This document shows, in pieces, positions 11,768 to 61,931 of a DNA stretch of 64,000 bases. Numbering within the stretch: the first letter of the stretch is position 1; each line of letters opens with the position of its first letter. The stretch is from Theocolax elegans (lineage: Eukaryota > Arthropoda > Insecta > Hymenoptera > Cerocephalidae): the NCBI GenBank assembly GCA_026168455.1, contig CM047425.1:27504256-27568255 (forward strand). The letters are read 5' to 3'. Both the position numbers and the translations under genes were made by a program. Under the pieces are notes generated by a model. The model searched no databases. It was not told the DNA's origin and saw only the letters and a program-made list of their open reading frames with translations.

Positions 11768-11807
11768 GTAAGGTAGATGCATTATTGCATTTAACGGACA
11801 TATTTTT

Positions 11808-12047: not shown

Positions 12048-12361
12048 AAATAAATAGTTTATATTACTGATAAAGTTTGCTTAGTACCAATTTCGTCGAT
12101 AGAGTGCGCGACGCGCTTAGTCTGTGGTATTATACTTAGAGTGGAAGCACTTGCGCAAATAGTTGTTGCAAGATGGCGCTAAATACCATAACTAATATAC
12201 CGGGCATATGTCAATAAACAGAATTATAATAAATATCGTGTTTATGTATTGTAGAAAGACTAATTTGTTTTGCCAGTGCATCCGTTATTGTACATATATG
12301 TATCAAGATTAATGCTTGATATCATCATGTACTGCTACGTGTGTCATGGCACGTCATTCTG

Positions 12362-12395
<34 letters not shown>

Positions 12396-13935: not shown

Positions 13936-13967
<32 letters not shown>

Positions 13968-14999
13968 GCTCTCACTCCATCTCTCTCTCTCTCGCGCTCT
14001 CACTGTATCTCTCGCTCTCTCTCTCTTACTCAACAAGAGTATATATGCACTTGCGCATGCGCACCGATTGCGTCACCACTGACGAACTTCACGTGGATCG
14101 TGTCCCGTTCCAGGTTTACCAATGTCTCATCAGTAAAAAGAGACTTGTAAACATTACCTCGAATAACTCCTAGCTATCTAACGAGTTTTATTTTTAAAAT
14201 ATATCACACTTACATGTTCATTTTACCTTTATTATAACTATGGGAATTTGTTTAAATTATTATACAAATATTAGTAAAGTCGTGAATATAACTACTAACT
14301 GCATATGTATCTTATTTCGAATATACTCGTGTAAACAATTATAAATTATAATCAGAATTATAATCAGTACCATCCAACACATGTGCTTATTGGCCCGTTT
14401 TATTTATTTAAAATACTTCCTTTTTACCATAGAAAATATAATCGACACTGCGCGGCACGCTCCCGCGAATGAGCGAACGCGGGAGCGTGCCTCGTAGTGT
14501 CCTGGTCGGGAATTTCGACTGAATAGGCAATTGCAAACGGTCTAAAAATTGTTTAAACCGGTAGGAAGTAAAACTTGAATAGCTTAGTCAAGAATATATC
14601 TCCTTTCACCCATTTTAGTGACCCAAAATATTTATTTTTTACCGTAGAAAATATAATCGACACTGCGCGGCACGCTCCCGCGAATGAGCGAACTCGGGAG
14701 CGTGCCTCGTAGTGTCCTGGTGGGGAATTTCGACTGAATCGGCAATTGCAAACGGTCTAAAAATTGTTTAAACTGCTAGGAAGTAAAACTTGAATAGCTT
14801 AGACAAGAATATATCTCCTTTCACCCATTTTAGTGACCCAAAATATTTATTTTTTCCGTAAAAAATATAATCGACACTGCGCGGCACGCTCCCGCGAATG
14901 AGCGAACTCGGGAGCGTGCCTCGTAGTGTCCTGGTCGGGAATTTCGACTGAATCGGCAATTGCAAACGGTCTAAAAATTGTTTAATCTGGTAGGAAGTA
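11853..14999. repeat. Near-identical 1.57-kb tandem duplication
   Basis: 11853-13426 is repeated at 13427-~14999, with an offset of 1,574 bp that drops to 1,572 after a CT tract two bases shorter. Each copy holds the MITE core, a (CT)n tract, ~500 bp of unique-looking sequence and 2-3 units of the 214-bp satellite. I noticed no difference besides the CT length, so it is very recent or an assembly artefact. Confidence 0.9.
12368..12453. repeat. (CT)n microsatellite (duplicated at ~13942-14027)
   Basis: An interrupted CT tract in both copies of the 1.57-kb duplication. It creates serine/leucine-rich frames that are not genes. Confidence 0.9.
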
Positions 15000-17930
15000 A
15001 AATTGAATAGCTTAGACAAGAATATATCTCCTTTCACCCATTTAAGTGACCCAAAATATTTATTTTTTCCGTCGAAAATATAATCGACACTGCGCGGCAC
15101 GCTCCCGCGAATGAGCGAGCTCGGGAGCGTGCCTCGTAGTGTCCTGGTCGGGAATTTCGACTGAATCGGCAATTGCAACGGTCTAAAAATTGTTTAAACT
15201 GCTAGGAAGTAAAACTTGAATAGCTTAGACAAGAATATATCTCCTTTCACCCATTTTAGTGACCCAAAATATTTATTTTTTCCGTAGAAAATATAATCGA
15301 CACTGCGCGGCACGCTCCCGCGAATGAGCGAACGCGGGAGCATGCCTCGTAGTGTCCTGGTCGGGAATTACGACTGAATCGGCAATTGTAAACGGTCTAA
15401 AAATTGTTTAAACTGGTAGGAAGTAAAACTTGAATAGCTTAGACAAGAATATATCTCCATTTGCCCATTTAAGTGACTCAAAATATTTATTTTTTACCGT
15501 AGAAAATATAATCGACACTGCGCGGCACGCTCCCGCGAATGAGCGAACTCGGGAGCGTGCCTCGTAGTGTCCTGGTCGGGAATTTCGACTGAATCGGCAA
15601 TTGCAAACGGTCTAAAAATTGTTTAATCTGGTAGGAAGTAAAATTGAATAGCTTAGACAAGAATATATCTCCTTTCACCCATTTAAGTGACCCAAAATAT
15701 TTATTTTTTCCGTAGAAAATATAATCGACACTGCGCGGCACGCTCCCGCGAAAGAGCGAACTCGGGAGCGTGCCTCGTAGTGTCCTGGTCGGGAATTTCG
15801 ACTGAATCGGCAATTGCAAACGGTCTAAAAATTGTTTAAACTGCTAGGAAGTAAAACTTGAATAGCTTAGACAAGAATATATCCCCTTTTGCCCATTTAA
15901 GTGACTCAAAATATTTATTTTTTACCGTAGAAAATATAATCGACACTGGGCGGCACGCTCCCGCGAATGAGCGAACTCGGGAGCGTGCCTCGTAGTGTCC
16001 TGGTCGGGAATTACGACTAAATCGGCAATTGCAAACGGTCTAAAAATTGTTTAATCTGGTAGGAAGTAAAATTGAATAGCTTAGACAAGAATATATCTCC
16101 TTTCACCCATTTTAGTGACCCAAAATATTTATTTTTTCCGTAGAAAATATAATCGACACTGCGCGGCACGCTCCCGCGAATGAGCGAACGCGGGAGCGTG
16201 CCTCGTAGTGTCCTGGTCGGGAATTACGACTGAATCGGCAATTGCAAACGGTCTAAAAATTGTTTAAACTGGTAGGAAGTAAAACTTGAATAGCTTAGTC
16301 AAGAATATATCTCCTTTCACCCATTTTAGTGACCCAAAATATTTATTTTTTACCGTAGAAAATATAATCGACACTGCGCGGCACGCTCCCGCGAATGAGC
16401 GAACTCGGGAGCGTGCCTCGTAGTGTCCTGGTCGGGAATTTCGACTGAATCGGCAATTGCAAACGGTCTAAAAATTGTTTAAACTGCTAGGAAGTAAAAC
16501 TTGAATAGCTTAGACAAGAATATATCTCCATTTGCCCATTTAAGTGACTCAAAATATTTATTTTTTACCGTAGAAAATATAATCGACACTGCGCGGCACG
16601 CTCCCGCGAATGAGCGAACTCGGGAGCGTGCCTCGTAGTGTCCTGGTCGGGAATTTCGACTGAATCGGCAATTGCAAACGGTCTAAAAATTGTTTAATCT
16701 GGTAGGAAGTAAAATTGAATAGCTTAGACAAGAATATATCTCCTTTCACCCATTTTAGTGACCCAAAATATTTATTTTTTCCGTAGAAAATATAATCGAC
16801 ACTGCGCGGCACGCTCCCGCGAATGTGCGAACGCGGGAGCGTGCCTCGTAGTGTCCTGGTCGGGAATTACGACTGAATCGGCAATTGTAAACGGTCTAAA
16901 AATTGTTTAAACTGGTAGGAAGTAAAACTTGAATAGCTTAGACAAGAATATATCTCCTTTCACCCATTTTAGTGACCCAAAATATTTATTTTTTCCGTAG
17001 AAAATATAATCGACACTGCGCGGCACGCTCCCGCGAATGAGCGAACGCGGGAGCGTGCCTCGAAGTGTCCTGGTCGGGAATTACGACTGAATCGGCAATT
17101 GCAAACGGTCTAAAAATTGTTTAAACTGGTAGGAAGTAAAACTTGAATAGCTTAGTCAAGAATATATCTCCTTTCATCCATTTTAGTGACTCAAAGTATT
17201 TATTTTTTCCGTAGAAAATATAATCGACACTGCGCGGCACGCTCCCGCGAATGAGCGAACGCGGGAGCGTGCCTCGTAGTGTCCTGGTCGGGAATTTCGA
17301 CTGAATCGGCAATTGCAAACGGTCTAAAAATTGTTTATTCTGGTAGGAAGTAAAATTGAATAGCTTAGACAAGAATATATCCCCTTTCAGCCATTTAAGT
17401 GACCTAAAATATTTATTTTTTCCGTAGAAAATATAATCGACACTGCGCGGCACGCTCCCGCGAATGAGCGAACGCGGGAGCGTGCCTCGTAGTGTCCTGG
17501 TCGGGAATTACGACTGAATCGGCAATTGTAAACGGTCTAAAAATTGTTTAAACTGGTAGGAAGTAAAACTTGAATGGCTTAGACAAGAATATATCTCCTT
17601 TCACCCATTTTAGTGACCCAAAATATTTATTTTTTCCGTAGAAAATATAATCGACACTGCGCGGCACGCTCCCGCGAATGAGCGAACGCGGGAGCGTGCC
17701 TCGTAGTGTCCTGGTCGGGAATTACGACTAAATCGGCAATTGCAAACGGTCTAAAAATTGTTTAAACTGCTAGGAAGTAAAACTTGAATAGCTTAGACAA
17801 GAATATATCTCCATTGGCCCATTTAAGTGACTCAAAATATTTATTTTTTACCGTAGAAAATATAATCGACACTGCACGGCACGCTCCCGCGAATGAGCGA
17901 ACGCGGGAGCGTGCCTCGCAGTGTTCTGGT
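12840..17930. repeat. 214-bp satellite, about 20 units, each with a GC-rich hairpin
   Basis: The word ATCGACACTGCGCGGCACG recurs near 12869, 13084, 13298, 14441, 14656 and then every 212-216 bases to 17867, with the 1.57-kb duplication breaking the series. Each unit carries a 22-bp inverted arm pair (CACTGCGCGGCACGCTCCCG and its partner ending TAGTG) around the 10-nt loop AATGAGCGAA, with about two mismatches. Units come in two types, CGCGGG (paired) and CTCGGG (one broken pair); the last six are all the paired type. Minus-strand frames span units by chance: 214 is not a multiple of three. Sequence at 17935-18240 is not repeat. Confidence 0.95.
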
Positions 17931-18189
17931 CTTCGATTTCAGGTAAATCATAATTATAATCGATTTAGAAATTTGTTCCTAGGCTTGGATGTAACATGTG
18001 ACTAATGCCATCATATACACAAGTTTATTTGCCCATTTTATTTTTAAAATTTATGTCATTTGTACTATTTGAATATAAATTAAACTCCCTATGCAATAAC
18101 ATGTGTATTATATTGCAATACTCATGGGTTCCCCCACTACACGCGTTCCGAATTCCCTATACTCGATATACGCAATCACCGTGCCGATA

Positions 18190-18250
18190 CGAGCACGGAC
18201 CGTGTGTATTCTGTGCGCGCGCGCTTGAATCTAGTTAGATTCAAGATGGC
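18190..18250 (+). promoter_or_regulatory. Possible GC-rich promoter with AAGATGGCGGC
   Basis: A GC-rich island in AT-rich DNA that ends with CAAGATGGCGGC at 18243. AAGATGGCGGC is the YY1-type initiator/start-codon motif of metazoan promoters. It stands at the first codon of the candidate small gene that follows. No TATA box is apparent. Inference only. Confidence 0.35.
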
Positions 18251-19686
18251 GGCAACTGAGCGCGGGCCAGCACGTAAACAATGTGCTTCGAGTAAGTTTC
18301 ACCATGTGCGCGCGATCCTTACCGTCGGGGACGTTACCCGGGCACTGACTCGGAGTGGTGTGTTTGTGAATGTGTTCATATACGCAAGTAGACGGCCCCC
18401 CAGGTGACGCAGTCCACTACGTTCACAGGTCTTCGGCGCGGTCAACAACGCAGCTGATCCCGGTGAAATTTTAAACGTTCATCATTTTATAAAGTATGCA
18501 CTATTTTAGTGCATTTGTAAGTACACTTCAATTATTTTCTTATTTACTTATTTAAATCAATTATCCATCTTCCTCTTATTAAATTCTATTCACTATTTAA
18601 TCCCTTTTGCTTCCTTATAGAGAAAGTTTTGTAATTGTGCAATTTTTTGACTCTCTAAAAACATGTTGTAAATATGTTTATTTATTTTTTTTTAATTATT
18701 TATCCCCCAAGTAGCTTTTTTTAAACACAATTTTCGATTTTTGAATAATTCATTTTTGGGTTGACTAAGTATATCTATTAGTTTTTTTGTTTTTTAAAAA
18801 AAAATTTGAATGATTTTGTTTTTTGTAAATTAATTAGCTAAATGAGCTAACAAAATGAATGTAAAGCAAAACTTTCTATGTCAGTTTTTATTTAGTCAAT
18901 AACTTATACATATGCAAATATGAATAATTTGTTTTTATGTAAATCACATTTGAATATTGAACAAAATTATAGGAATATTCTTTATGTTTGTGAAAAGATG
19001 TAGTGTTTTTTAAAAAACATGCTAATACAAAGGTATTCGTTTAACATTTTAAATATACTTTTTAAACAAATATAAATAATTTTAGATATATTGTAAAATA
19101 TTATTTATTTATAAGAAACGAAATATTTTTAGAAATATTATAAAATTTTGTTTTATATAATTAAATAATACTATATTTGAGTAATATATTACATATAGGA
19201 TCAACATTTTAATTTGAGGAAGTTACGTGCCAATTAATTGGCAGCTGTTTTTTTATTCTGTTGATAACTCCCTTTTGAATTTCATAAATTGAATATCCAG
19301 TATTCAATTACTTCTTCCAAAATACTTATTCACTTATACATTATTTTCCTTTTATATTCTATATTATATATTTTATTTACTTCCTACTTATTACATATAT
19401 GTCCCTACTAACCAATAAATAATTACTATTACGCAATATTAACATATTTCTTATTACAGATGCAGCGTGCCAAGGAGTAGCTGACAACGGCAAACCCCAC
19501 GGACACGCTGACACCGTACAACGTTCTGGATGTTCACGTCATCAACTTCATGTTCACCTTGTAAATACAGATAAGTATATTTACATGATATTACCTCTTA
19601 ATATTGAATACTTATTGATTAATATATATTTTTTTTATTTTCAGGTATCGTTTAGTGATGTGACTACATCACAGATCAAAGTGTGA
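18246..19686 (+). CDS. Candidate small three-exon gene, 62 residues, unknown function
   Basis: Three segments join in phase: exon 1 18246-18291 (ATG in an AAGATGGCG context, donor GTAAGT), exon 2 19460-19560 (acceptor TTATTACAG, donor GTAAAT) and exon 3 19645-19686 (acceptor TTTTATTTTCAG, stop TGA). Lengths 46, 101 and 42 total 189, exactly 63 codons, and no stop interrupts them. Exons 1 and 2 are GC-rich and the introns (1,168 and 84 bp) AT-rich, as expected of real exons here. The product begins MAATERGPARKQ and has no domain I recognise. It could be a chance frame in a noncoding spliced transcript, or part of a repeat. A diverged ~330-bp duplication begins close to exon 3. Confidence 0.35.
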
Positions 19687-19689
19687 TTT

Positions 19690-20230
19690 ATTCTAGATTA
19701 TAAATTCGGTTGACATATATTTATATTATCTGTTTTAAAGATACTTATGTTTTGAGAGATCAGCGTAGACGTATATCTATGTTTAACCAAAGATATTTTC
19801 CACGATTTCAAAATTAATCTCAAGAGAACCTACCACATATTATGTACATATGGACTTACTTCAAGGTTGGAACATGCAACCTATCTAGACACTCTTGAAA
19901 ATTAGTTATTTCATCTACTGCTTCATGATCCATCTATGTTTACACCTTACGTATCTGCAAGCGTTTTGGCGATTCAGATATATACACACCAGGTCAGTAA
20001 AGTTAAATGTATGATTTATACTAGATTTTGAAATACTGTTGTCGAATGTTTATTTTTCATGTTTTACAGATACTTTTCTGTGTCCAGAGATCGGCGTAGA
20101 TGTATATTTAGTGTTTAACCACAGATAAAATATTCCATAATGTCAATATTAATGTGAAGAGGATTTACCACATATTATATGCATATGGACTTAATTGGAC
20201 CTATATATTACATAGAAAAATACAGAAATA
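19690..20230. repeat. Diverged ~330-bp direct duplication
   Basis: GTGATTTATTCTAGAT (near 19683), AGATCAGCGTAGACGTATAT and CCACATATTATGTACATATG each have diverged partners ~310-340 bp downstream (TGATTTATACTAGAT, GATCGGCGTAGATGTATAT, CCACATATTATATGCATATG). The unit appears twice. No function visible; 20231-20330 is transitional. Confidence 0.7.
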
Positions 20231-20329
20231 TCGGGTCCCAGATGGTCTAAATAGGTGCATATTGGAAAGCAAAAATTAAGAGTATCAAATGGTCTAATCC
20301 ACTGAATAGTGAAATGCGTACTAATTGGT

Positions 20330-21150
20330 ACTATTCATAGCCTGTGTTCAAAGGGTGAAGCCAAACGAATACCACGAGTACTTGCATAACGAAATGCAAG
20401 GAATGTATTCAGCAAAGATAAAAAGGTTGAACCAAAACGAATATAACGAGTACTTACATAGCGAAATGTAAGGAATGAATTCAGTAAAGCTAAGAAGGAA
20501 TGAAGCAAATCGAATACCACGAGTACTTGCATAGCGAAATGCAAGGAATGTATTCAGTAAAGGTAAAAAAATTATTCAAATCGAATACCACGAGTACTTG
20601 TATAGCAAAATGCAAGAAATTTAGTTAGTAAAGGTAAAAAAGATTGAAGCAAAGCGAATACGACGAGTACTTGCATAGCGAAATGCAAGGAATGTATTCA
20701 GTATCGGTAAAAAAGATTGAAGCAAAACGAATACGACGAGTACTTGCATAACGAAATGCAAGGAATGTATTCAGTATCGGTAAAAAAGATTGAAGCAAAA
20801 TGAATACGACGAGTACTTACATAGCGAAATGTAAGGAATGTATTCAGTAAAGGTAAAAAAGGTTGAAACAAAATGAATACGACGAGTACTTACATAGCGA
20901 AATGTAAGGAATGTATTCAGTAAAGGTAACAGGTTGAAGCAAAATGAATACGACGAGTACTTGCATAGCGAAATGCAAGGAATGTATTCAATAAAGGCAA
21001 AAGATTGAAGCAAAACGAATACGACGAGTACTTGCATAGCGAAATGCAAGGAATGTATTCAGTATCGGTAAAAAAAGGTTGAATCAAAATGAATACGACG
21101 AGTACTTACATAGCGAAATGTAAGGAAAGTATTTAGTAAAGGTAAAAGGC
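20330..21150. repeat. 73-bp minisatellite with a covarying hairpin, ~11 units
   Basis: GAATACGACGAGTACTTGCA and GGAATGTATTCAGTAAAGG recur every 72-73 bases. Each unit holds a 7-bp inverted pair around AGCGAA. The stem is either CTTGCAT/ATGCAAG or CTTACAT/ATGTAAG, so both sides change together; a CTTGTAT/ATGCAAG unit would pair through G-U. A related stem CTGCAT/ATGCAG lies at 21180-21200. Confidence 0.9.
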
Positions 21151-21199
21151 TCTACTTACGTTTTAGATGGTATAGTCCGCTGCATAGAGAAATGCAGAA

Positions 21200-21780
21200 A
21201 TAAGTGTATTTACAGTAATATTCACTGCAGCAAATAAATGAAGTGAACGGTACAAATCACTACATTGCATAAAAAAGTAATATTTTAAATGTAACGCAAT
21301 CTGTTGTATGCCTTTTTTGATTAACACCTACTGACTACAATTGTTTCATAAATAAATATTTAAAATATATATTTAAAATATATATATTTAATTCTAATGT
21401 TTTAAGCAATCCGCTTGAAATTTTTCAGATTTTTAATTTAATATTATAAATATTATTTTTATTTTGAAAGATGCAGATTCCTATAATTTGGGTCTGACAT
21501 CCCGTCAACTAAATAAAATATACTAGTATTATCATCTATTTTGAGGTTATATTATATTACCGATACCATTATCGATAATTGTTGAGTTTGCATCCCCAAT
21601 GGTTTTTTTGTAAAATAATGCAATGCACAAAAAGATATTGGTAAATGAATATGATAGCTGGAATGTACGATTAGCGCCATCTACTGTAAGCTTATAGCGT
21701 AATATAATGTTATAACGGATGATGGCGCTGCTAGTACATTGCAGCTTACTACATTACCTACGCTTCGTCGATAGTTCTTC
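21200..21780. other. AT-rich stretch with no recognised feature
   Basis: No long frame, repeat array or RNA gene seen. It ends at the inner edge of the right Penelope-like terminus. Confidence 0.5.
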
Positions 21781-22252
21781 GCTATGGCACCCCCTTAAGA
21801 ATGATAAGAATGTTAATTTAATGTTAGAGTCAAGTAAATTAAATAAGATTTATCATCCTATCTTAACTTAGCTTAGTTTATTGGTGTGAATTTATTTAGG
21901 GTGGGTCCGTGGAGTGGGGAGGCTTTTTTGAGGGTTTAAATATCGTGTGGAATAGATTTTCATTTCAGTCCCTGATGAGGAGCAGCAGCGAGCTCGAAAC
22001 GTCGGACATCATATTTGGGGTTAGTAGATTTTTGGTGCAGGGGGGCAGTCAGATTGCTTTATTAATAATTTGTTTTTATGTTTAGTTAGTGTTTTTATTT
22101 TTTATATTTTATATTTTTTATTTTTATTTTTATAGATTCTTCGGGGGTGATTATAAGTAGGGGCAATCTGATTGCCCATATAATTGACTGTAAGACCGAT
22201 AAAAATATTAATTAATTTAGTTATACTACAGTCGACATAAGTAATATTTTAT
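21781..22252 (+). mobile_element. Penelope-like terminal repeat (right copy) with adjoining non-coding segment
   Basis: 21966-22220 is the inverted partner of 11020-11275. The segment 21797-21965 is non-coding, and the inner boundary carries the inverse of TTAAGGGGGTGCCATA also found at the end of the left copy. The outer edge is followed by TAATATTGAAATATTA (22253-22268), the direct partner of 11004-11019. Confidence 0.75.
21968..22007 (+). ncRNA. Hammerhead ribozyme, minimal type I (Penelope-like terminus)
   Basis: Stem I GTCC (21968-21971) / GGAC (22004-22007); core CTGATGA (21972-21978); G; stem II GAGC/GCTC; GAAA (21996-21999); C; GTC (22001-22003) with cleavage after C22003. Stem III is the loopless ACGT palindrome, implying function as a dimer. 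Identical 40-nt partner at 11230-11269. Confidence 0.88.
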
Positions 22253-22309
22253 TAATATTGAAATATTATTATATTTATTATCTGCTTTTAAACATTTCAT
22301 ATTTGGACA

Positions 22310-43690: not shown

Positions 43691-44085
43691 TTTGAAGTTG
43701 AGGGGATGTCGGAGCTATAGCCTCCGTTGCCAGACGCTCGATCTCAGAGGCACAGCGGCTAGGTGGCGAATTCGGCGATAAATGTACTTCAAACATAAAT
43801 TTTAAAAATTACAGCTATTTTGGCTGTTGTAATGTGCTTTTCCTCTTAGCTATGACAAAAATTGTTGTAACTACGTTATTATGATTGGCGAATGTTAAGT
43901 TTAATGTAATAGCATAGTTGCCATAATTTTAGTCATAGCTAGGGGGAACACCCTATAACAGCCAAAATAGCTGTAATTTTTAAAATTTATGTTTGAAGCA
44001 CATTTATCGTCGAATTTGCCACCTAACCGCAGCACCACTAGCATCAAGCGGCTATCGACGGACGTAATAGTTACATCCCCTTGAA
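43690..44085. mobile_element. Foldback MITE, ~190-bp arms (family E)
   Basis: Inverted arms with TTGAAGTTGAGGGGATGT near the left end and a GTTACATCCCCTTGAAGC counterpart at the right. The inner parts (AAATTACAGCTATTTTGGCT and its inverse) are highly similar and the outer parts diverged. No coding sequence. Confidence 0.8.
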
Positions 44086-44676
44086 GCAACAACTGTCATT
44101 TTCAGTTTCTAATGTAAAATTTTTCTTTTTCATTTCTTATTATTTTATCATTTATTTTTATTTTTTAATATATTACTATAGTTTTCTGATTAATTAATTT
44201 TTAATTTTTTATATTAATTAATTTTTTTGCTTTTATTATTATCCATTCACATTATATTGTTTTCTAATTTAGTACTTTGAATAAATGATTCATCTTATTT
44301 CATAGACCCAACATTTTTTAAATTTAACCTTTTATTTTGTAAATAATTCATATCTGCACTTTCTATTAATTTATCTATATAGAGCATAAATATTCTAAAA
44401 TTTCCTTTTCTTAAAAACATATTAGAATTTTAATTTATACATATAATTTGTTTTTATATGATAAATGAATTTATTGATCTCCACAAGACAAAGAAATATT
44501 CCTCACATCTCAAGTAAGGCGGACTGTATTAATACCAGCCACTTTATAAACCTCACAGGATGAGTGTTTGAAAAAAGACTGAGACAAGCTAGGTCAATTT
44601 AAAATTTAGTTAATTGTAGTATGAAATTAATAAAAACTTAATAAGACGGAAAACAAAAAAAAAAAAAAGAAAAAAT

Positions 44677-44743
44677 TGTATTTCGCCCTGAGTATGCCTG
44701 GTGCGCTCATCAGTAGAGTCCAGGCATCTCGTCTCTAGATACA
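44677..44743 (-). ncRNA. Hammerhead ribozyme type III, unit 1
   Basis: Minus strand: stem III TGTAT (44743-44739) / ATACA (44681-44677); C17 at 44738 with cleavage before 44737; stem I TAGAG/CTCTA with loop ACGAGATGCCTGGA; core CTGATGA; stem II starting GC/GC (third pair G-G mismatch) with ACCAGGCATACTCA in its loop; core GAA. The loops contain ATGCCTGG and CCAGGCAT, perfectly complementary, which fits loop-loop stabilisation. Confidence 0.93.
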
Positions 44744-45228
44744 GATGACAGATAAAAAAATTTTTGAAAACCAGCTGTATTCTGACGAGGAAGACATGGG
44801 GTATATATGCCCTACCGATAGCAAACTTTAATAAGTGCCACATATTAACAGGTAGCCCCCTAACGCACTTACATAGAACTAATGTCTTAATCGTCAGACT
44901 ATTGTTACATAAGGCATATTCGTGATCCAATGCCATATAATTTTAAAAATTTGAATTTTCCAACTATTAGAAAAATTCGTGAATTTATCGCTTGTTTATA
45001 TTATAAGTTATATGATAAATGAATTTATTGATCTCCACAAGCCAAAGAAATATTCCTCACATCTCAAGTAAGGCGGACTGTATTAATACCAGCCACTTTA
45101 TAAACCTCACAGGATGAGTGTTTGAAAAAAGACTGAGACAAGCTAGGTCAATATAAAATTTAGTTGATTGTAGTATGTAATTAATAAAAACTTAATAAGA
45201 CGGAAAACAAAAAAAAAAAAGATAAAAT

Positions 45229-45295
45229 TGTATTTCGCCCTGAGTATGCCTGGTGCGCTCATCAGTAGAGTCCAGGCATCTCGTCTCTAGATACA
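45229..45295 (-). ncRNA. Hammerhead ribozyme type III, unit 2
   Basis: Same 67-nt motif as unit 1, all core residues present. Confidence 0.93.
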
Positions 45296-45781
45296 GATGA
45301 CAGATAAAAAAATTTTTGAAAACCAGCTGTATTCTGACGAGGAAGACATGGGGTATATATGCCCTACCGATAGCAAACTTTAATAAGTGCCACATATTAA
45401 CAGGTAGCCCCCTAACGCACTTACATAGAACTAATGTCTTAATCGTCAGACTATTTTTACATAAGGCATATTCGTGATCCAATGCCATATAATTTTAAAA
45501 ATTTGAATTTTCCAACTATTAGAAAAATTCGTGAATTTATCGCTTGTTTATATTATAAGTTATATGATAAATGAATTTATTGATCTCCACAAGCCAAAGA
45601 AATATTCCTCACATCTCAAGTAAGGCGGACTGTATTAATACCAGCCACTTTATAAACCTCACAGGATGAGTGTTTGAAAAAAGACTGAGACAAGCTAGGT
45701 CAATTTAAAATTTAGTTAATTGTAGTATGAAATTAATAAAAACTTAATAAGACGGAAAACAAAAAAAAAAAAAGATAAAAT

Positions 45782-45848
45782 TGTATTTCGCCCTGAGTAT
45801 GCCTGGTGCGCTCATCAGTAGAGTCCAGGCATCTCGTCTCTAGATACA
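45782..45848 (-). ncRNA. Hammerhead ribozyme type III, unit 3
   Basis: Same 67-nt motif as unit 1, all core residues present. Confidence 0.93.
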
Positions 45849-46329
45849 GATGACAGATAAAAAAATTTTTGAAAACCAGCTGTATTCTGACGAGGAAGAC
45901 ATGGGGTATATATGCCCTACCGATAGCAAACTTTAATAAGTGCCACATATTAACAGGTAGCCCCCTAACGCACTTACATAGAACTAATGTCTTAATCGTC
46001 AGACTATTGTTACATAAGGCATATTCGTGATCCAATGCCATATAATTTTAAAAATTTGAATTTTCCAACTATTAGAAAAATTCGTGAATTTATCGCTTGT
46101 TTATATTATAAGTTATATGATAAATGAATTTATTGATCTCCACAAGACAAAGAAATATTCCTCACATCTCAAGTAAGGCGGACTGTATTAATACCAGCCA
46201 CTTTATAAACCTCACAGGATGAGTGTTTGAAAAAAGACTGAGACAAGCTAGGTCAATATAAAATTTAGTTGATTGTAGTATGTAATTAATAAAAACTTAA
46301 TAAGACGGAAAACAAAAAAAAAAAAAAAT

Positions 46330-46396
46330 TGTATTTCGCCCTGAGTATGCCTGGTGCGCTCATCAGTAGAGTCCAGGCATCTCGTCTCTAGATACA
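46330..46396 (-). ncRNA. Hammerhead ribozyme type III, unit 4
   Basis: Same 67-nt motif as unit 1, all core residues present. Confidence 0.93.
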
Positions 46397-46881
46397 GATG
46401 ACAGATAAAAAAATTTTTGAAAACCAGCTGTATTCTGACGAGGAAGACATGGGGTATATATGCCCTACCGATAGCAAACTTTAATAAGTGCCACATATTA
46501 ACAGGTAGCCCCCTAACGCACTTACATAGAACTAATGTCTTAATCGTCAGACTATTTTTACATAAGGCATATTCGTGATCCAATGCCATATAATTTTAAA
46601 AATTTGAATTTTCCAACTATTAGAAAAATTCGTGAATTTATCGCTTGTTTATATTATAAGTTATATGATAAATGAATTTATTGATCTCCACAAGCCAAAG
46701 AAATATTCCTCACATCTCAAGTAAGGCGGACTGTATTAATACCAGCCACTTTATAAACCTCACAGGATGAGTGTTTGAAAAAAGACTGAGACAAGCTAGG
46801 TCAATATAAAATTTAGTTGATTGTAGTATGTAATTAATAAAAACTTAATAAGACGGAAAACAAAAAAAAAAAAGATAAAAT

Positions 46882-46948
46882 TGTATTTCGCCCTGAGTAT
46901 GCCTGGTGCGCTCATCAGTAGAGTCCAGGCATCTCGTCTCTAGATACA
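46882..46948 (-). ncRNA. Hammerhead ribozyme type III, unit 5
   Basis: Same 67-nt motif as unit 1, all core residues present. Confidence 0.93.
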
Positions 46949-47269
46949 GATGACAGATAAAAAAATTTTTGAAAACCAGCTGTATTCTGACGAGGAAGAC
47001 ATGGGGTATATATGCCCTACCGATAGCAAACTTTAATAAGTGCCACATATTAACAGGTAGCCCCCTAACGCACTTACATAGAACTAATGTCTTAATCGTC
47101 AGACTATTTTTACATAAGGCATATTCGTGATCCAATGCCATATAATTTTAAAAATTTGAATTTTCCAACTATTAGAAAAATTCGTGAATTTATCGCTTGT
47201 TTATATTATAAGTTATATGATAAATGAATTTATTGATCTCCACAAGCCAAAGATTTTTTATCTGTCATC

Positions 47270-47336
47270 TGTATCTAGAGACGAGATGCCTGGACTCTAC
47301 TGATAAGCCCACCAGGCATACTCAGGGCGAAATACA
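47270..47336 (+). ncRNA. Hammerhead ribozyme, inactivated copy (G8 to A)
   Basis: Core reads CTGATAA instead of CTGATGA. G8 is a catalytic base of the hammerhead, so this copy should not cleave. Stem II here is fully paired GCCC/GGGC. Confidence 0.88.
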
Positions 47337-47823
47337 ATTTTTTCTTTTTTTTTTTTTTGTTTTCCGTCTTATTAAGTTTTTATTAATTTCATACTACAAT
47401 CAACTAAATTTTATATTGACCTAGCTTGTCTCAGTCTTTTTTCAAACACTCATCCTGTGAGGTTTATAAAGTGGCTGGTATTAATACAGTCCGCCTTACT
47501 TGAGATGTGAGGAATATTTTTTTGGCTTGTGGAGATCAATAAATTCATTTATCATATAACTTATAATATAAACAAGCGATAAATTCACGAATTTTTCTAA
47601 TAGTTGGAAAATTCAAATTTTTAAAATTATATGGCATTGGATCACGAATATGCCTTATGTAACAATAGTCTGACGATTAAGACATTAGTTCTATGTAAGT
47701 GCGTTAGGGGGCTACCTGTTAATATGTGGCACTTATTAAAGTTTGCTATCGGTAGGGCATATATACCCCATGTCTTCCTCGTCAGAATACAGCTGGTTTC
47801 CAAAAATTTTTTCATCTGTTATC

Positions 47824-47890
47824 TGTATCTAGAGACGAGATGCCTGGACTCTACTGATGAGCCCACCAGGCATACTCAGGGCGAAATACA
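47824..47890 (+). ncRNA. Hammerhead ribozyme type III, intact copy with 4-bp stem II
   Basis: TGTAT/ATACA, C17 at 47829, TAGAG/CTCTA, CTGATGA, stem II GCCC/GGGC fully paired, GAA. Probably the most stable version in the window. Confidence 0.95.
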
Positions 47891-48238
47891 ATTTTATCTT
47901 TTTTTTTTTTTGTTTTCCGTCTTATTAAGTTTTTATTAATTTCATACTACAATCAACTAAATTTTATATTGACCTAGCTTGTCTCAGTCTTTTTTCAAAC
48001 ACTCATCCTGTGAGGTTTATAAAGTGGCTGGTATTAATACAGTCCGCCTTACTTGAGATGTGAGGAATATTTCTTTGGCTTGTGGAGATCAATAAATTCT
48101 TTTATCATATAACTTATAATATAAACAAGCGATAAATTCACGAATTTTTCTAATAGTTGGAAAATTCAAATTTTTAAAATAATTTGTTTTTCTTATATAT
48201 TGTCGCATCCAACACAAAATTACATTATTATTTTTCAG

Positions 48239-48532: not shown

Positions 48533-48985
48533 AAAATTTTTTTTTTTTTTTTTAAATTTTGGTAGTTTCCACGTACACCTTTTTACAGGTTTTTACGTAT
48601 CCCCTACACCTTTATTCCATTTCCAATTTTACCCCCTTTTTACCCCACCTTCTCGCATTCGCCCGGGGTTATGCCCGTGGAGAGAGGGAAAACCTGTGGC
48701 CAAACCCGTTGGGATAAATGCCATTTAGGAAAACCTCCTCCGAGAAGGACGGTGTATTCGAGAACAATTCTGTTTGGGTGGCAAGGTCACATTGCGTAGA
48801 CTTTAACACCGAAACCGAATGCCTCACACCTCCCGCTCACGTTGTGGAATGTGAAAAAACACCTAACCGATCATTTAAGCTAAGCCCGAGAACGGTCACC
48901 CATCCAAGTGCCAACCGCGCTCGGTGCTGCTTAACTTTCATGACCGGCCGAGGTGCGCTTCCGCCACTCCGCCACCGTGTCGGTC
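48533..48985 (-). mobile_element. Complete 5S-derived SINE with 16-bp target duplication
   Basis: Flanked by GTAATATTATTCTATA at 48517-48532 and 48986-49001. Minus strand: a 5' head with TGGCGGAGTGG (A-box-like), then the 5S-like promoter region AGTTAAGCAGC...GGATGGGTGACCG, ~300-bp unrelated body and a 14-16-base A tail. The perfect duplication and long tail suggest recent insertion. It is transcribed, if at all, by pol III and would depend on an autonomous LINE for mobility. Confidence 0.95.
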
Positions 48986-49329: not shown

Positions 49330-52300
49330 ATTATGATTTGGCAAATAAAGTCGCAAATGAAGTCGGAGAAGGATACGTTGATGTAACTCTAACCTCTCCA
49401 GACAAGGCACAAAGAATACAAAATTGGAAAGTGCAAGAAAACTGGACATCAACCATAGAGCAATAACATTTGAATTAGTGGAACAAGATCAGGGAGGTAG
49501 ATACAGGAAGCAAGAGTACATCAAAAGGTATATAACAAGCAAAGCGGACTGGGGATTGTTCATCAACACACTGAGAGAAAATTGGAACGCCCAACCGCAC
49601 CGTCAGGATATTGGTTCAACAATCGCTGGCATTAAAGATATAATAAATAGGATAAAAATAGCATGTGACAAAGCTATACCTATTAAGAACAAGACGAGTA
49701 GGAAAGTTCCATGGTGAAACAAAGAACTGACAAAGGCCAAAAATCATACAAACAGACTACGCAGGAAATTTCAAAGGGAGAGAGATCCGGACATAAGAGA
49801 ACGCGCAAAAATGACATATAGATTAGAGACTAATAGACACAGCCAAAATCCAAAAATAGGAAGAATTCGTGATCAAACAAGGAAATGATAATCCATGGAG
49901 CTTACCATACAAACTGGCGGCCAAAAAAGCTAGAGTCAAAGAAATCGCAAGTAACGTAAAGACAAACGATGACTACACAATGACCTGGAATGACACAGCA
50001 GAGAAAATCCTTCATCAACTTTTTCCAGACGATAATCTGGAGACAGAGACAAGGAATCAAAGAGAAGTAAGGCAACAAAACCAAAGATACTCAGCCGAAT
50101 TCAGCGAAACCAAAAGTTTTACAAGGCAGGAAATGGCGCAAGTAGTAAAAAAAATGAAACTAGGAGAAGCGCCAGGAATCGACTGTTTCGATCTGAAAAT
50201 AATAAGAGTTGCTCTCACAGTAGTTGGTGAAGAACTATAAAGGCTCTACAACAGTTGCCTAAAACTTGGTATATTTCCGAATACTTGGAAAACAGGTAAA
50301 ATAATAACAATAAAGAAGGGAAAAGAAAAAGACCCTGGTTTGATTAGTTCATACAGACCAATATGCCTGCTACCAGTTTTAGGAAAAATTCTGGAAGGTC
50401 TAATAATCAAAAAGTTAGAATGAATAGTGGAACCACGTCTGTTAGATAAACAATACGGTTTTAGAAAAGGAAGATCAACCGAAGATGCGATAGTGTACTT
50501 GAAGACCAAAATACACAACTCAAGCAACAGATACGTGCTCATAATGTTTCTAGATATAAAACGAGCATTTGACAATGTATGGTGGCCCGGAGAAAATAAG
50601 AATTTGAGAGGCATTAGCTGCCCCTGGAGACTGTACAATATCATTAGGGATAACCTCTGTAATAGCAAAGTTATTATAACGGAAGGTAGCAATTTTGCAA
50701 GCAAAAATGTGACAAAGGGATGCCCGCAGGGATCTCTACTAGGACCGATACTATGGAATATTGTATTTGACGAAATGCTTCACAAGCTAGACAGAGAAGG
50801 ACACGAGACGATAGCCTATGCAGATGATCAAGCCATTATAATAGAAGGAGAATCGCGTAAAGAACTAGAATGGCAAGGACAAATGGCCATAAGCATAATA
50901 AAGAAATGGAGTGAAAATATCAAAATTAAAAATGCCCCAGATAAGAACGCAATGTTATTAGCGAAGAGAACATTCCATCAAAAATGTTACCCACTAATCA
51001 GGATAAACGGACAAAGAATCAAAAGGCAGGAACCGTTTAAATATCTGGGTGTTTCATTTGGCAAAGGCCTTAGCGTTTAAACGCATGTTACGGAGATCTC
51101 AAAGAAAACCAGAGGAATATTCGAAATGCTGGTGTTTCTAGCTAGAGAGGAATAGGAATCAGGCTATTAATCTCTAGAAATAATATACAAGGAAGTGTTT
51201 ATACCTATAATCACATACGCGGCAGCAGGTTGATACGGGCTCACAAATAATGTCCAGAAAAAGAAACTCATAATGTCGCAAAAATATGCCCTGATGAAAA
51301 TCACAGGAGTATACAGAACCATCTCGGCTGAAGCCATTACGATTACTACGGATCACCTACCGATTGATTTGAAATGTGAGAGGAAGATCGGATTATATAG
51401 TATAAGAAAAGGAAAAGAATACCGATATAAAAATTTCACATTTCAATCGGAGCAGAGATCAGCAGAAGGCAACATTCAGAGAGAAAGAAAACTGTCGATA
51501 GAAAACCTAAATCAGGAAATAAGGAAGGAATGGCAGTTAATATGAGACAACACGATAAAGGGAAGAGACACATATGAGGTTATGCCTAGTATAGAAGAAA
51601 GAATGGCAAAGTTTTGGTTTAGACCGAGCAAATGGCTAATCCAAATACTCAGTGGACATGGAAATTTCCAAACTTTTAGGAAAAGATTCAATTTCGACGA
51701 GTCCGACCTATGCAGCTGCGGAGAGGTAGACACCCCGGAACATGCTTTATGGGGATGCATGAAGTACGAAACAATACGACACAAATATGTACAGGACATG
51801 GAAGAAGCAAAAATAAAAACACAAAAGGGATGATGACGACCAAAGAGGGAATAGCCAACCAAACCACGATTGTTAAAGACATTATGCTTGTAAAGATTGC
51901 TACCGAAGATCTAGAAAAAGACTTGGCTTTAACCGCGACAATAGCAGAGTTAGCAGCTCCAGAAGAAGACGAAGTATGAATGATAGACGTAGGCTCAGTT
52001 AATCTTCCAGAACTAGAAATAGGTAGAGAGAAAGGAAACGCATAAGTAAGCAGAGGGAGAAACCGAATGAGTGAAAGACGGAAGATAGCAGATAGGTCAA
52101 CATCGAAAGTCGAGCTAACAAATGTCGCACTAACAGTGGTAGCAGAACAGAGGTAATCTCGATATATTAGAGATGTTGTACTAACAAAAGCAATGACTAA
52201 TATTCCGGATAGGGAAACAAGGGTTTGAACAAGGGAATGAAAGTTGAGCAAAAGGAAAGAATGAATGAAAAAGCTCAGAATAAAAGGTAGGGTGAGTGAG

Positions 52301-54613: not shown

Positions 54614-56538
54614 CTCCTCCCGTTGCGAAGGGATGAGCAAAACGCATAACGTGGGAATTAAATGCTTGTTTCCCCCTTTTTTGTTTTTTTAAGCTACGTC
54701 TGGCAGCGGGTAGAGCTGCGTGATGTTGCATTTCAGAACGCCTTGTGCCGTTTTAAGCGTGACCACGCGAACGATGCCGTCATCTCCAGGATGCGTCTCG
54801 ATGACTACTCCTAGTCGCCAGCGCATGCATGGTTGATTCTTGTCGATGAGGATGACCACAGAGCCTTGTTTTATTTCGCCCTTGTTTGTATGCCATTTTT
54901 GTCTTTTTTGAAACTCCGAGAGGTACTCCAGTTGCCATTTTCGCCAGAAACTTTGACGCGCTATTGTTATAAATTCCCAAATTGAAAAGCGATTGTCTGG
55001 AACAAAAATCAAATTGGTTTCGGACAGCATGTTCAGAGGTCGGCGGACCAAGATATGCGCAGGTGTCAAGGCAAGAGGATCGTTAGGGTCGTTAGATAGA
55101 GAACACAGTGTCCGGGAATTCAAAATTGCCTCTATTTCGATGGTCAGAGTGTTAAGCTGCTCGAAAGTCAAAACCTGATCGCCCACGACCCGCCTAAAAT
55201 GGTGCTTGAAGCTTTTCACGGCAGCCTCCCATATGCCACCGAAATGTGGCGACGACGGAGGGTTGAAATGCCAGACAATGTTATTCGTGTGACATATGCG
55301 TTCACCTCACCGTGAAATTCGTTCGAATTAAACAAAGCGTATTATTCGCGTAGCTTATTGTTGGCTTCGACGAAGTTCATGCCGTTGTCCGAATAAATAT
55401 GTGATGGAATCGCGCGACGTCCGATGAAGCGTTTCAACGCTCCGAGAAAACCGTCCGCCGTCAAATCGCTGACGATCTCGATGTGCGCGGCCTTCGTCCA
55501 CATACAAACACGCAGCCATATGTTTGAACGCGTGCGCGATTACGCGAGTTTTCGCTCTTTAATATAAAAAGGTTCAAAGAAATCTATTCCGGTATGTGAA
55601 AATGCCTTACCTTAACGCGCGCGGCCGGTAAGTTTCCCATTTTACCCTGCATAGTCACCGGACGGTTACAAATGCACTCCACGCATCGTCTAACGATCCT
55701 GCGTACCTGGTTCTTTCCGTGGAGCAACCAAAATCGGTGACGTATTGCGTAAAGCGTAGTTTGGATCCCGGCATGATGTGTATTCCGGTGCGTTTCGCGA
55801 ATGATTAGATCCATTACATGATGATACGAGGGCAAAAGTATTGGATGTTCGTCAATGAAAGGATCGAATGAAGTAAGGCGCGTGTCCTTTATAGGTAAGG
55901 ATCCCTTGATTCGTTTTATCTCAAGACTAAACTGTTGAATTTGTATTAAACGCGAAATTCTTCGCTCTATATCAATTCGATCAGATACACCGATATTTTT
56001 ATTTTTGAAATTGTTGTCCCGACGAAATCGCAAACAGTACGCGATCGTATTCACAAGAGTCGAGTACGACGAGAATCGCTCAAACAACTTATTTTCAGTT
56101 GTCGTTGCGAGACAAATATTTTCCTTTAATCCGGGTAAGTCGGACACGACCGATTCAACACTCTTAGACGAGGCGTATTAGGAATGCTTAAGCCAAACAG
56201 GTCCCTCAAATCACCCTTTGTTCTTCAAAAAATCGGCGGGAAGCTGCCCTCGGGAAATTTTATCGGCCGGGTTGTCGTCTGTATGCACGTGGCGGCAATT
56301 AATTGAGTATGCGAGAGATTGGATCTCTGCCACGCGTCTGCCCTCAAATGCCTTCAAAACCTGTGGGATTTTTTAAGCCAACTAAGCATGATCGCAGAAT
56401 CCGTCCAGAAAACCGTCCGCGAGATCAGAGTCTCGAACATTGGTTTAGCCTCATTAAATAGACAGTATGTTGTTTATGCAACGCGAGACTATATATCGAA
56501 AGAAAAAAGAACACCAAAATGAACGATTAAACTAATCG
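54614..56538 (-). pseudogene. BEL/Pao pol remnant: RNase H end, integrase, DUF5641
   Basis: Reading from 56500 down: RNase H end (TDSAIMLSWL, then DNPADKISRGQLP near 56240), a linker, the integrase zinc module H-H-C-C (THHAGIQTTL, RFWLLHGKNQ, CVEC) in the 55584-56147 frame, the integrase core (TGIDFFEPFYIKERK, VSDLTADGFL, IYSDNG) in other frames at 55330-55610, then [10 protein letters not shown] and the DUF5641-type tail ending at 54689. Frameshifts lie at ~55580, 55330 and 55220 and stops upstream. Gag, protease and RT are absent, so the element is deleted between its 5' LTR and RNase H. No restored protein is implied. Confidence 0.9.
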
Positions 56539-60004: not shown

Positions 60005-61770
60005 TAGAGATTGATTGATTGAAATGTTTATTGGGCCATTATAGGGTAGAAACCCTATAGACACTAAAAGCTAACAGATACACGGATTAAAACGTTAAAA
60101 CTAAATAACAATATAAAATTCCAATAACAAAATATAAAATGCAAAACCTAGACAGAATAATAGTTAGATAAAATAAAAGAAAGTAAAATAAGATAAAATA
60201 AAATAAAATAAAATATATGTACAATTCGATGATAATTAATAAATAAATAAATTAAAAATTAAAAATAGATAACAAGAAAAATAAGTAAAAGAATATCTAA
60301 CGTTCGCAGTAAGCCGCAGTATAAAAGAATATAAACAATCTAACGTTCGCAATAAACTGCAGTATAAAAGAATATAAAGGAATGTAAACAATATGCGCAA
60401 TGGATAAATAAATAAATAATGACAAGAATTACCTATAATGACGTAATATATAACAAGAGAACAAACAACATTAAACCCAACTAGACTTGGACATCCAGGT
60501 GAGGGATGGACCGTAACGATATGCCTTCGTTCGCGACCCGCGTAGACCAGGCTGCCTGATCGAGCCCAAACAGATGATTGTGTAAAATGATCTTGAAATT
60601 GTCAGAAAATGATGGATCGAAGGTGAGTGTGGGAAAATGATTTAGGATGCGAGTGGAAGTAATGACAAAAGATCTATTTAAAGCTTCAGTGCGTGGAGGA
60701 AGATACATGAGTGACCTAGGGGGATGGCGGGAGGAGGAACGAGGAAAATGACCAGGGGTGTTGAGTATGGTGAAATGATCTGCTAGGTATGATGGTGATT
60801 TATGAGCAATGATGTTGAACGCCAGGGAACCAATGAGGTATGAGCGTCTAGACTCGACTGACAGCCACTTCAAACTCAGTCTAAACGGGGTTACATGGTC
60901 ACGTCTCGTTAAATTGCCCCATACAAATCTCACACAGGCATTTAGTAGCCTTTGTAATTTTAGATTTCTAGTCTGGTCCACATCATTGTAGGCCGCACAC
61001 GCGTAGTCGAAATGGGGAAAAATGAGAGCTTCCACTAGATTCTTGCGAAGTTTCATTGAAAGTGTCTTATTATAATATCGTGGTGAGTGTAACACTCCGT
61101 GAACACGCCTGGAGATTGACATGACTTGTTTTGACCAGTCGAGGATGGGTGTAATCAATAGGCCCAACGATTTTACCACATTTTCATAATCAAGAAAGTT
61201 ATCACACAATTTAACTCTCGGAGCAGTGTTCAGGTTAATACGAGATATAAATGCCTGACTACCCAGGATCATAACCTTCGTCTTTTTTACATTTAGTGAG
61301 AGGCCGTTTTCCGATGCCCACCTGGCTATCGCGTTAGCATCCTGAGATATGCGTTGAACACCATTTTCAATATCCGCTGGAAAAAACGAATGATAGATCT
61401 GGGCGTCATCGGCAAATAACATGTAGTTACTAAACTTAAGAACCTTAGGTAGGTCATTAATAAAGATGGAGAATAAGACCGGACCTAGAACACTGCCCTG
61501 AGGCACACCTGCGTTCACCTCGAGCCAGTCAGACAGCATGCCAACCTCATCCACAACGGCTTGCGTGCGACCTACAAGATATCTGTAGAACCAGTTGAGT
61601 ACGGTATCTGAGCAACCGATGTCACCCAACTTTCGAATAAGTTGATCGTGAGGGACTGTGTCAAAGGCCTTGGAGAAATCAAATAAGACTAAGATCGTAA
61701 TCATTCTGGAATCGATAGCTCGTCTTACATCGTCCAATACCCCTAGAAGAGCTGATTGAGTACTGTGACC

Positions 61771-61772
<2 letters not shown>
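60005..61772 (-). mobile_element. 5'-truncated non-LTR retrotransposon with (AATC)n tail
   Basis: The minus-strand frame 60481-61737 (418 codons) is an intact RT segment: motif A LVLFDFSKAFD (Asp20), motif B GVPQGSVLGP (77-86), motif C FADD (108-111), then a thumb and C-terminal region without an evident RNase H. Upstream codons to 61772 (HSTQSALLGVL) extend the RT domain; endonuclease and ORF1 are missing. The 3' UTR ends AATAAACATTTCAATCAATC and joins TCTCTAAAAC. The left leader copy shows the empty site, CAAAACTC next to (CT)n; flanks TTTAGAGA and TTGAGAGA fit a short target duplication. Clade uncertain; no frameshift in 418 codons suggests a young copy. Confidence 0.9.
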
Positions 61773-61822
<50 letters not shown>

Positions 61823-61931
61823 AATAGTACGTGTTAGAGTGAGAGTGTGAGCAAGAGAAACAGCGTGTGAGACGCGTGTCTAAACCGGTGTATTCCCCCT
61901 CTTGTTCGGGTATCCGAGGAGAGGTGTACAC

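Follow-up and report, generated by a model that had tools for sequence, protein, structure and literature searches.

The 64-kb window analysed here, a single stretch of the Theocolax elegans genome, contains a short array of units of about 550 bp that bear hammerhead-like motifs and run outwards in opposite directions, which raises the question of what kind of element this is and how it entered the chromosome. We found that the array is bounded by a 13-bp target-site duplication, ATAATTTGTTTTT, at 44443-44455 and 48179-48191, which puts its true ends slightly outside those given in the original prediction. The left arm (44456-47251, minus strand, sense leftward) consists of head-to-tail units, one partial, four full and one partial, and its outer end lies at unit position 284 (site A). 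The right arm (47252-48178, plus strand, sense rightward) consists of a unit end, one full unit (47276-47829) and a partial unit, and its outer end lies at about unit position 351-358 (site B). The G+C content of the region is about 0.31-0.32, the only stop-to-stop frames of at least 110 amino acids within the array measure 110 and 115, and no open reading frame of the size of a reverse transcriptase with a GIY-YIG endonuclease is present in it. The array in the window is a non-coding, A/T-rich element of tandem units. Since its arms differ from each other by 1.59 per 100 sites, versus 0.48 among the minus-strand units, a single template molecule is no simple explanation of this copy.

Seven hammerhead-like motifs are found in the 64-kb window, five on the minus and two on the plus strand, between 44677 and 47890, with a unit spacing of 548-554 bp. 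All seven had been predicted to satisfy the full consensus; this holds for the plus-strand motif at 47824-47890, the sole fully consensus type III hammerhead of the window. In the five minus-strand motifs (44677-44743, 45229-45295, 45782-45848, 46330-46396 and 46882-46948) stem II is mismatched, GCGC facing GGGC, which leaves uninterrupted pairing only for its first two pairs, and the other plus-strand motif (47270-47336) carries the core mutation CTGATAA and is probably dead. The loop sequences ATGCCTGG and CCAGGCAT are indeed perfect complements, and the motif itself places cleavage at 44738/44737, as proposed. The flanking A-run noted earlier exists as a T-run on the ribozyme strand; it is located inside the unit, directly 3′ to the ribozyme, and so does not represent a poly(A) tail.

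A descriptor scan of the window returned 6 sites, every one inside this array, and the same descriptor gave 2 sites in 40 first-order Markov control sequences of window length (both strands). Searching the 64 kb with Rfam gave no match at the gathering score. Below it the type III family RF00008 matched, in keeping with the topology of the motifs: the complete copy (47824-47890) scored 32.8 bits (E 2.8e-4) and each of the five minus-strand copies 25.6 bits (E 0.029), while the core mutant (47270-47336) had no RF00008 match listed even at these lower scores. The gathering threshold is 48.5, and the best scores were 32.8 bits in the window and 42.9 among 14 genome matches. The original prediction had named the lack of an Infernal hit above threshold as grounds for refutation, and, formally, such a hit is absent for every listed copy. 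We, however, give more weight to covariation than to the Rfam score, because the loops of the Rfam model are short and those found here are 14 nt. The hammerhead motif is real but was overstated, and we regard its earlier description as partly confirmed.

Copies retrieved from the genome provide 149 unit junctions for family 1, to which the window array belongs; CTGATGA is present at 141 of them and the stem II pairing GCCC/GGGC at 127; in the commonest variant of this family, TGTAT/ATACA of stem III is exchanged as a pair for TATAT/ATATA. A second family, with an unrelated sequence and a 513-nt unit, has the same stems I-III and an 8-bp loop-loop pseudoknot (its loop complement extends to 12 nt; the loop-loop pairing of family 1 is 8 bp). 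In the comparison of the two families 97.3% of cells pair, and double changes are seen at 10 of 22 pairs, including 4 of the 8 pseudoknot pairs, a covariation that comes down, for the most part, to a single contrast of the two families, with family 1 contributing one paired change of its own; 16 of 500 shuffles matched the number of double-change pairs, and 500 of 500 matched on further pair types. Divergence in the ribozyme region is 0.85 versus 2.45 per 100 sites, which places it among the least diverged parts of the unit, as is unit 409-544. Conservation of the core and stems, with their covariation between families, bears out the type III reading, in which the two loops of the hammerhead form a Watson-Crick pseudoknot; the ribozyme is probably self-cutting. 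Pseudoknotted type III hammerheads are best known from plants and plant subviral RNAs. Misfolding of the core by the loop pairing, also named earlier as a ground for refutation, is a real risk, given that the nested form with paired loops has a predicted energy of -20.3 kcal/mol, versus -8.1 kcal/mol for the bare hammerhead without the pseudoknot, and that predicted folds of the whole circle also favour the loop hairpin. Exact ribozyme patterns gave 0 and 0 matches in viral contigs.

The layout of the window array recurs in the copies retrieved from the genome. All 31 two-armed arrays have outward-pointing (divergent) arms, a raw count, confined like the others to retrieved stretches (several listed family 1 arrays lie outside all counts), in which local duplications within S28 and S34 are each counted twice; removal of the second copies leaves 29. 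Within the unit, about 40 or 67 nt separate site A from site B. One outer end at A and one at B were found in 24 of 27 complete two-armed arrays and in all 3 completed later (27/30 in total; arrays cut by locus ends are excluded here and from the duplication counts), where the left end of S42 (unit 320) is classed as B by the wide band only and one end each of S8 and S23 falls in neither class. Of 27 arrays, 20 had flanks in common over at least 11 nt, versus 6 of 515 mis-paired controls, and each of the three later arrays had them in common over 13 nt; the flank duplications of the retrieved insertions are mostly 11-15 nt. Arrays of family 2 behave in the same way in layout, ends and shared flanks. 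We found no record of the pairing of A with B ends in the published literature. As dispersed insertions with target duplications, these copies uphold the earlier idea of a retrozyme spread by retroposition: the element is a dispersed, recently active, non-coding retroelement.

The same window also holds a Penelope-like insertion, which shows the same layout as the arrays. It is flanked by 16-bp target duplications (11004-11019 and 22253-22268), starts with an inverted pLTR (11020-11290, minus strand) whose outer end is at its own site A, continues with a Penelope-like GIY-YIG endonuclease fragment (11273-11767, plus strand) and finishes with a direct pLTR (21959-22252, plus strand) that carries a 33-nt 'tail' beyond site A and ends at its own site B. 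The two pLTRs are 99.2% identical over 261 nt. The inverted pLTR contains a motif that we take to be a minimal type I hammerhead, although a search extended to E 5 listed no hammerhead family for this pLTR. Adjoining the endonuclease fragment, no part of a reverse transcriptase was seen. Beyond A/T-rich stretches, the Penelope-like pLTR and the array units have no common sequence. Folding of the A-B region was significant for the pLTR only (z -3.4; units -0.1, -1.2 and -0.8), so that a stem-loop at site A common to both is no more than a hint. Copies of the endonuclease in the genome gave at least 150 matches, the full number scored among 4112 candidates, and some of these contain long open frames. 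Two relatives of the fragment carry the precomputed label PF26215, which our own domain scan did not list for them, and the reverse-transcriptase search gave as its one named relative Nesidiocoris tenuis (a bug; 41%).

This anatomy recalls what is reported for Penelope elements. In the parts of the biochemical study considered here, a Penelope protein cleaves and extends both strands in vitro and starts at two adjacent internal RNA sites, the 'tail' being the stretch between them (PMC11167929). Those parts report no strand difference in start site, whereas in our arrays A and B are almost always used once each. The portion of a second account that we drew on describes head-to-head pLTRs with a 31-bp tail on one end; the target duplications for which it states a size measure 8-10 bp, and some insertions have none (PMC3846280).

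The mirror-image layout points to a Penelope-type enzyme that copied a single repeating RNA simultaneously into the two ends of the cut chromosome. Taken jointly, a type III hammerhead retrozyme, priming on two strands at two sites and a Penelope-type enzyme make up the reading that we consider likely; that the template was a circular RNA we favour only slightly. The element would be a non-autonomous, non-coding RNA of about 550 nt with a type III hammerhead and a Watson-Crick loop-loop pseudoknot. Arrays would be transcribed, and the hammerheads would cut the transcript into monomers, to be ligated into circles. A Penelope-type reverse transcriptase/GIY-YIG endonuclease, which we infer because the insertion anatomy matches and Penelope-like endonuclease copies are abundant in the genome, would then nick both A/T-rich target strands roughly 11-13 bp apart, in line with the observed target duplications. 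The two T-rich 3′ ends would prime within the RNA at two fixed positions, A for one strand and B for the other, as the observed ends suggest, and each reverse transcriptase would circle the template a varying number of times, which may account for the multi-unit arms. Joining of the two cDNAs at varied unit positions, as seen at the junctions, would complete the mirror-image array. On this reading, the copy in the window is an insertion of the same kind whose ribozyme mutations arose later or were borne by the template.

Put more broadly, the RNA on which both target strands were primed would be circular or, failing that, multimeric. A linear multimeric transcript, used by the same element and enzyme with the hammerhead dispensable for insertion, is a variant of our reading, compatible with its other steps, and we hold it to be rather unlikely. 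A linear multimer could serve because, in the parts of the Penelope study considered, mutating the hammerhead left insertion in vitro unaffected and most of the RNA used was unprocessed (PMC11167929). The arrays S7, a mixture of two unit haplotypes, and S1, also mixed, are as expected of transcripts from heterogeneous arrays. Against this, the ribozyme sequence is conserved in most retrieved units, and an active ribozyme would be expected to cut the multimer into monomers, which would be incompatible with multi-unit arms. No substitutions separate the full units of S38, whether on the same arm or on opposite arms, and those of S10 differ by 0.11 per 100, while the T-run varies in length; this combination is consistent with a single monomer having been copied repeatedly, though it does not demand it. 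In a test of single templates, the nearest unit fell within the same array in only 52 of 88 cases, as no substitutions distinguish units that belong to different young arrays; a strict period-2 order of units, as a mark of a dimer template, was not seen.

Two-strand (twin) priming also differs from the foldback amplification suggested earlier, and is the better reading: the two outer ends do not match, one being A and the other B, and at most inner junctions the two arms meet at different positions of the unit. A DNA foldback-type transposon, with tandem units as long terminal inverted repeats and the ribozyme as passenger, would have palindromic arms, target duplications and a variable number of units, as we observe, and identical termini. 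The ends, however, are two different sequences with no common terminus, vary by several nucleotides and grade into A/T bases of the target. In addition, one-armed arrays exist (14/37 in family 1 and 5/13 in family 2, some cut by locus ends; 10 A and 3 B among classifiable outer ends), paired changes keep the ribozyme stems, and the Penelope-like insertion of the window follows the same grammar, which makes such a transposon improbable. Snap-back self-priming of one cDNA or antisense template, suggested for the same layout in rotifer Penelope elements in the portion of that account considered (PMC3846280), predicts near-equal junction positions, yet these were within 20 nt in only 3 of 31 listed junctions (S15, S16 and S33; the S17 junction is incompletely resolved), about the chance level, and snap-back would leave one A and one B end unexplained; we consider it very improbable. 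The label 'satellite' suits S24 and S35 (one-direction arrays, 5.1 and 3.3 per 100 divergent) and the long family 2 arrays on small contigs, but does not fit the retrieved insertions, which are short dispersed arrays with target duplications and fixed ends whose units recur without substitutions on different contigs, so that unequal exchange of ordinary satellite DNA with a chance or decaying hammerhead has a negligible probability. On these grounds we reject the plain satellite, the foldback transposon and snap-back. The original interpretation as a whole is partly supported.

The arrays can be set beside several known systems, each compared here from parts of its literature. Metazoan (non-LTR) retrozymes are likewise non-coding, A/T-rich, dispersed tandem units with hammerheads, for which Penelope enzymes have been proposed as movers, but they are of type I with units of 150-450 bp (Cervera and de la Pena 2020, PMC7229834), whereas the units here measure 513-554 bp and bear type III ribozymes whose pseudoknot is of Watson-Crick pairs. 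No LTR was noticed in the arrays. Because the topology is type III rather than type I, we do not file the arrays as a metazoan retrozyme, only as working like one; the word 'inverted' is absent from the text of PMC7229834, and the mirror-image A/B layout is not described in the parts considered. With Penelope-like elements (PMC3846280, PMC11167929) the arrays share head-to-head inverted terminal repeats, a tail at one end, two adjacent internal start sites and A/T-rich targets that are duplicated over a similar length; they differ in that no protein was seen, the arms are pure monomer repeats and a type III ribozyme takes the place of the minimal type I. Plant LTR retrozymes (PMC4918200), as described in PMC7229834, have a type III hammerhead, a similar monomer size and a proposed circular RNA intermediate, but are LTR elements probably moved by Gypsy machinery, in contrast to mirror-image arms with A/B ends. 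Type III hammerheads with a Watson-Crick loop 1-loop 2 pseudoknot also occur in animals, in delta-like agents (toad, termite) and dipteran genomes, with a 4-nt consensus pairing and larger helices (PMC7936874), versus 8 bp between terminal loops in tandem repeats here.

These protein-free arrays reduce the question of Penelope insertion, with its hammerheads, inverted repeats and one-sided tail, to RNA parts, and place pseudoknotted type III hammerheads in recently active retroelements of an insect. The two different fixed end sites in 27 of 30 complete two-armed insertions are a pattern that can be checked on purified enzyme. More tentatively, and with somewhat less than even confidence, we propose that Penelope-type enzymes integrate hammerhead-processed circles by concerted two-strand rolling-circle reverse transcription, in which the two protomers of a dimer would take a target strand each, starting at A and at B respectively, and that type III retrozymes may be their non-coding parasites. 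If true, this obligatory A/B division would explain why Penelope elements possess both a 'tail' and an inverted pLTR.

The array of family 1 (a non-coding unit of ~550 nt with a type III hammerhead) occupies window positions 44456-48178 and consists of two arms, that is, runs of head-to-tail units placed back to back, the left on the − strand and the right on the + strand. The original prediction, that seven motifs here fulfil the hammerhead consensus, was right about their number: the left arm has five with sense leftward, and the right arm two with sense rightward. It was too generous about their integrity, as just one of them, at 47824-47890, is complete, while five copies have a mismatch in stem II and one has a mutated core. 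At the gathering score, Rfam returned no match in the window; under relaxed settings the complete copy scored 32.8 bits with RF00008, and five others 25.6 bits each. A descriptor scan of the window found six sites, every one of them inside the array, against two sites in 40 random sequences as long as the window.

By eye, a MITE-like inverted repeat (43770-44030) lies immediately left of the array. To its right, the − strand at 48880-48980 resembles what we take to be the 3′ part of 5S rRNA, with no Rfam match at gathering. The window also holds Pif1/Helitron-like frames (8035-10563), a reverse transcriptase (50424-51080), DUF5641 and integrase zinc-binding frames, presumably BEL/Pao-like (54689-56177), and another reverse transcriptase (60481-61833). 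Tandem repeats of 214-215 bp with 95-96% matches are found at 14421-17931 and 12838-13431, and similar CT-rich arrays at 12363 and 13937. A near-perfect hairpin at 11884-11966 gave sub-threshold matches to microRNA families (mir-559, 51.6 bits against a gathering score of 95), on the other strand too, and is perhaps a small foldback element.

Of 149 family 1 unit junctions, 141 have the core CTGATGA and 127 have GCCC/GGGC as stem II; GCGC in stem II occurs five times, the same number as the left-arm copies of the window. In the commonest variant (87/149), stem III takes an alternative paired form, TATAT/ATATA. An RF00008 search of the genome gave 14 places, all belonging to a second family (family 2) with a 513-nt unit, whose loops in their common form are perfect 12-nt complements; by blastn the two families are only weakly similar (best E 0.02). 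No Rfam family matched the family 2 loci L039, L049 and L051. Divergence between arrays is lowest in the ribozyme region and at unit positions 409-544. We aligned 16 locus references (15 distinct) from both families over the three stems and an 8-bp loop-loop helix. Standard pairs filled 97.3% of the cells, compared with 29-49% for control helices slid by 1-3 columns, and both sides had changed in 10 of the 22 pairs. The paired percentage, the double-changed cells and the covariation score were each equalled in 0 of 500 shuffles; the number of double-changed pairs was less distinctive (16/500), and on further pair types the alignment did no better than chance (500/500). The covariation signal is mostly one contrast between the two families. 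The hammerhead may also compete with a second state: the loops paired as a plain hairpin have a predicted energy of −20.3 kcal/mol, versus −8.1 for the hammerhead without the pseudoknot (isolated loop-loop duplex, −12.8 kcal/mol), and predicted whole-circle folds select the loop hairpin.

Searches of the 658-Mb genome gave 205 unit matches for family 1 (27 of 1028 candidates) and 212 for family 2 (35 of 791); because only the best candidates were scored, the copy numbers are lower bounds. The fetched loci and the window were merged into 45 stretches; the arrays analysed number 50, 37 of family 1 and 13 of family 2. Eleven small contigs with one-direction family 2 arrays (C337, C455, C479, C535, C556, C657, C762, C901, C1034, C1219 and C360, the last being L039) each have a match starting at unit position 160, pointing to copies of a single larger locus.

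The fetched arrays represent insertions dispersed over the genome. Two arms were present in 31 of the 50, and in all 31 they point outward (29 if the locally duplicated second copies in stretches S28 and S34 are discounted). The flanks of 20 of the 27 complete two-armed arrays share at least 11 nt, as do only 6 of 515 mis-paired controls (mean sharing, 11.5 vs 5.1), though the shared stretches may contain a few nucleotides of arm; six of the 27 share 8 nt or fewer. The targets are 77% A/T (duplication plus 16 nt on each side, 20 sites), compared with about 66% in the window. Some units on different contigs are free of substitutions, disregarding gaps such as T-run length, and therefore the family moved recently.

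The outer ends of the arms fall at two fixed unit positions, A and B, near 284 and 351 in family 1 and near 290 and 330 in family 2. Exactly one A and one B end were found in 24 of the 27 complete two-armed arrays; none has two B ends, one has two A ends (S34, in its locally duplicated second copy), and two have an end outside both classes. Three further arrays, first cut by locus ends and then completed, follow the same rule, with one end of each class, and in every case their flanks have 13 nt in common. Where the outer end of a one-armed array could be classified, it was A in 10 and B in 3. S18 (C3:22373200) and S36 (C5:3199500), compared by eye, apparently occupy one and the same position in another repeat, with the A and B ends exchanged, so that this target sequence received two insertions, one in each polarity. 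The inner junctions are variable: the arm matches abut or overlap by 1-6 nt (once 25 nt, S38) in 15 of 31, and are separated by 2-34 nt in the other 16, where in S0, S17, S19 and S39 the intervening stretch finishes with a unit's last bases, so that the true gap is smaller. Snap-back copying is disfavoured, since in only three of the 31 junctions do the two sides differ by no more than 20 unit positions.

For comparison, the window contains a Penelope-like insertion (11004-22268) with head-to-head pLTRs and a 16-bp target duplication. Its left arm finishes at its own A site, and its right arm alone bears a 33-nt tail. The second pLTR, at 21959, is 99.2% identical to the inverted pLTR over 261 nt, and is separated from a GIY-YIG endonuclease fragment (Pfam PF01541, E 2.5e-5) by about 10 kb of other sequence, probably a later insertion. 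The pLTR contains a motif that is presumably a minimal type I hammerhead; no hammerhead is listed there by Rfam. Scoring among 4112 candidates gave at least 150 endonuclease matches in the genome. A hand count of the listed matches found 18 neighbouring pairs at most 6 kb apart, 13 divergent, 2 convergent and 3 same-direction (one-sided chance of at least 13 divergent among 15 opposite pairs, 0.004).

Animal retrozymes are described with type I hammerheads in the available part of PMC7229834. The available text of PMC7761336 and PMC7936874 refers to type III hammerheads in insects, in part as studies still being prepared; PMC7936874 states there that its atypical type was not found in hymenopterans, hemipterans or a cockroach. 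Animal type III retrozymes with mirror-image A/B insertions did not appear in the titles or abstract openings listed for published open-licence papers.

According to the available part of Frangieh et al. 2024 (PMC11167929), a Penelope protein in purified form cleaves both strands and extends them, favours targets rich in A/T, and begins at two neighbouring sites inside the RNA; the tail of genomic copies corresponds to the segment between these sites. In vitro, no strand difference was seen and the ribozyme was not needed. The A/B pairing in our genomic arrays exceeds what that part of the study reports. T-run length varies among nearly substitution-free units (12-15 at 0.11 substitutions per 100 in S10; 11-14 at 0.00 in S38), consistent with one sequence having been copied repeatedly. 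The divergence of the window's arms (1.59 per 100 sites) and the mixture of two haplotypes in S7 speak against a single template. Of the proposed mechanism, the outward-pointing arms, their A/B ends, the duplicated targets, the multi-unit arms and the variable junctions are directly observed. We infer that the units would be transcribed, cleave themselves and be ligated, and that the multi-unit arms would arise by rolling copying of a circular, or at least multimeric, RNA by a Penelope-type enzyme priming on two strands.
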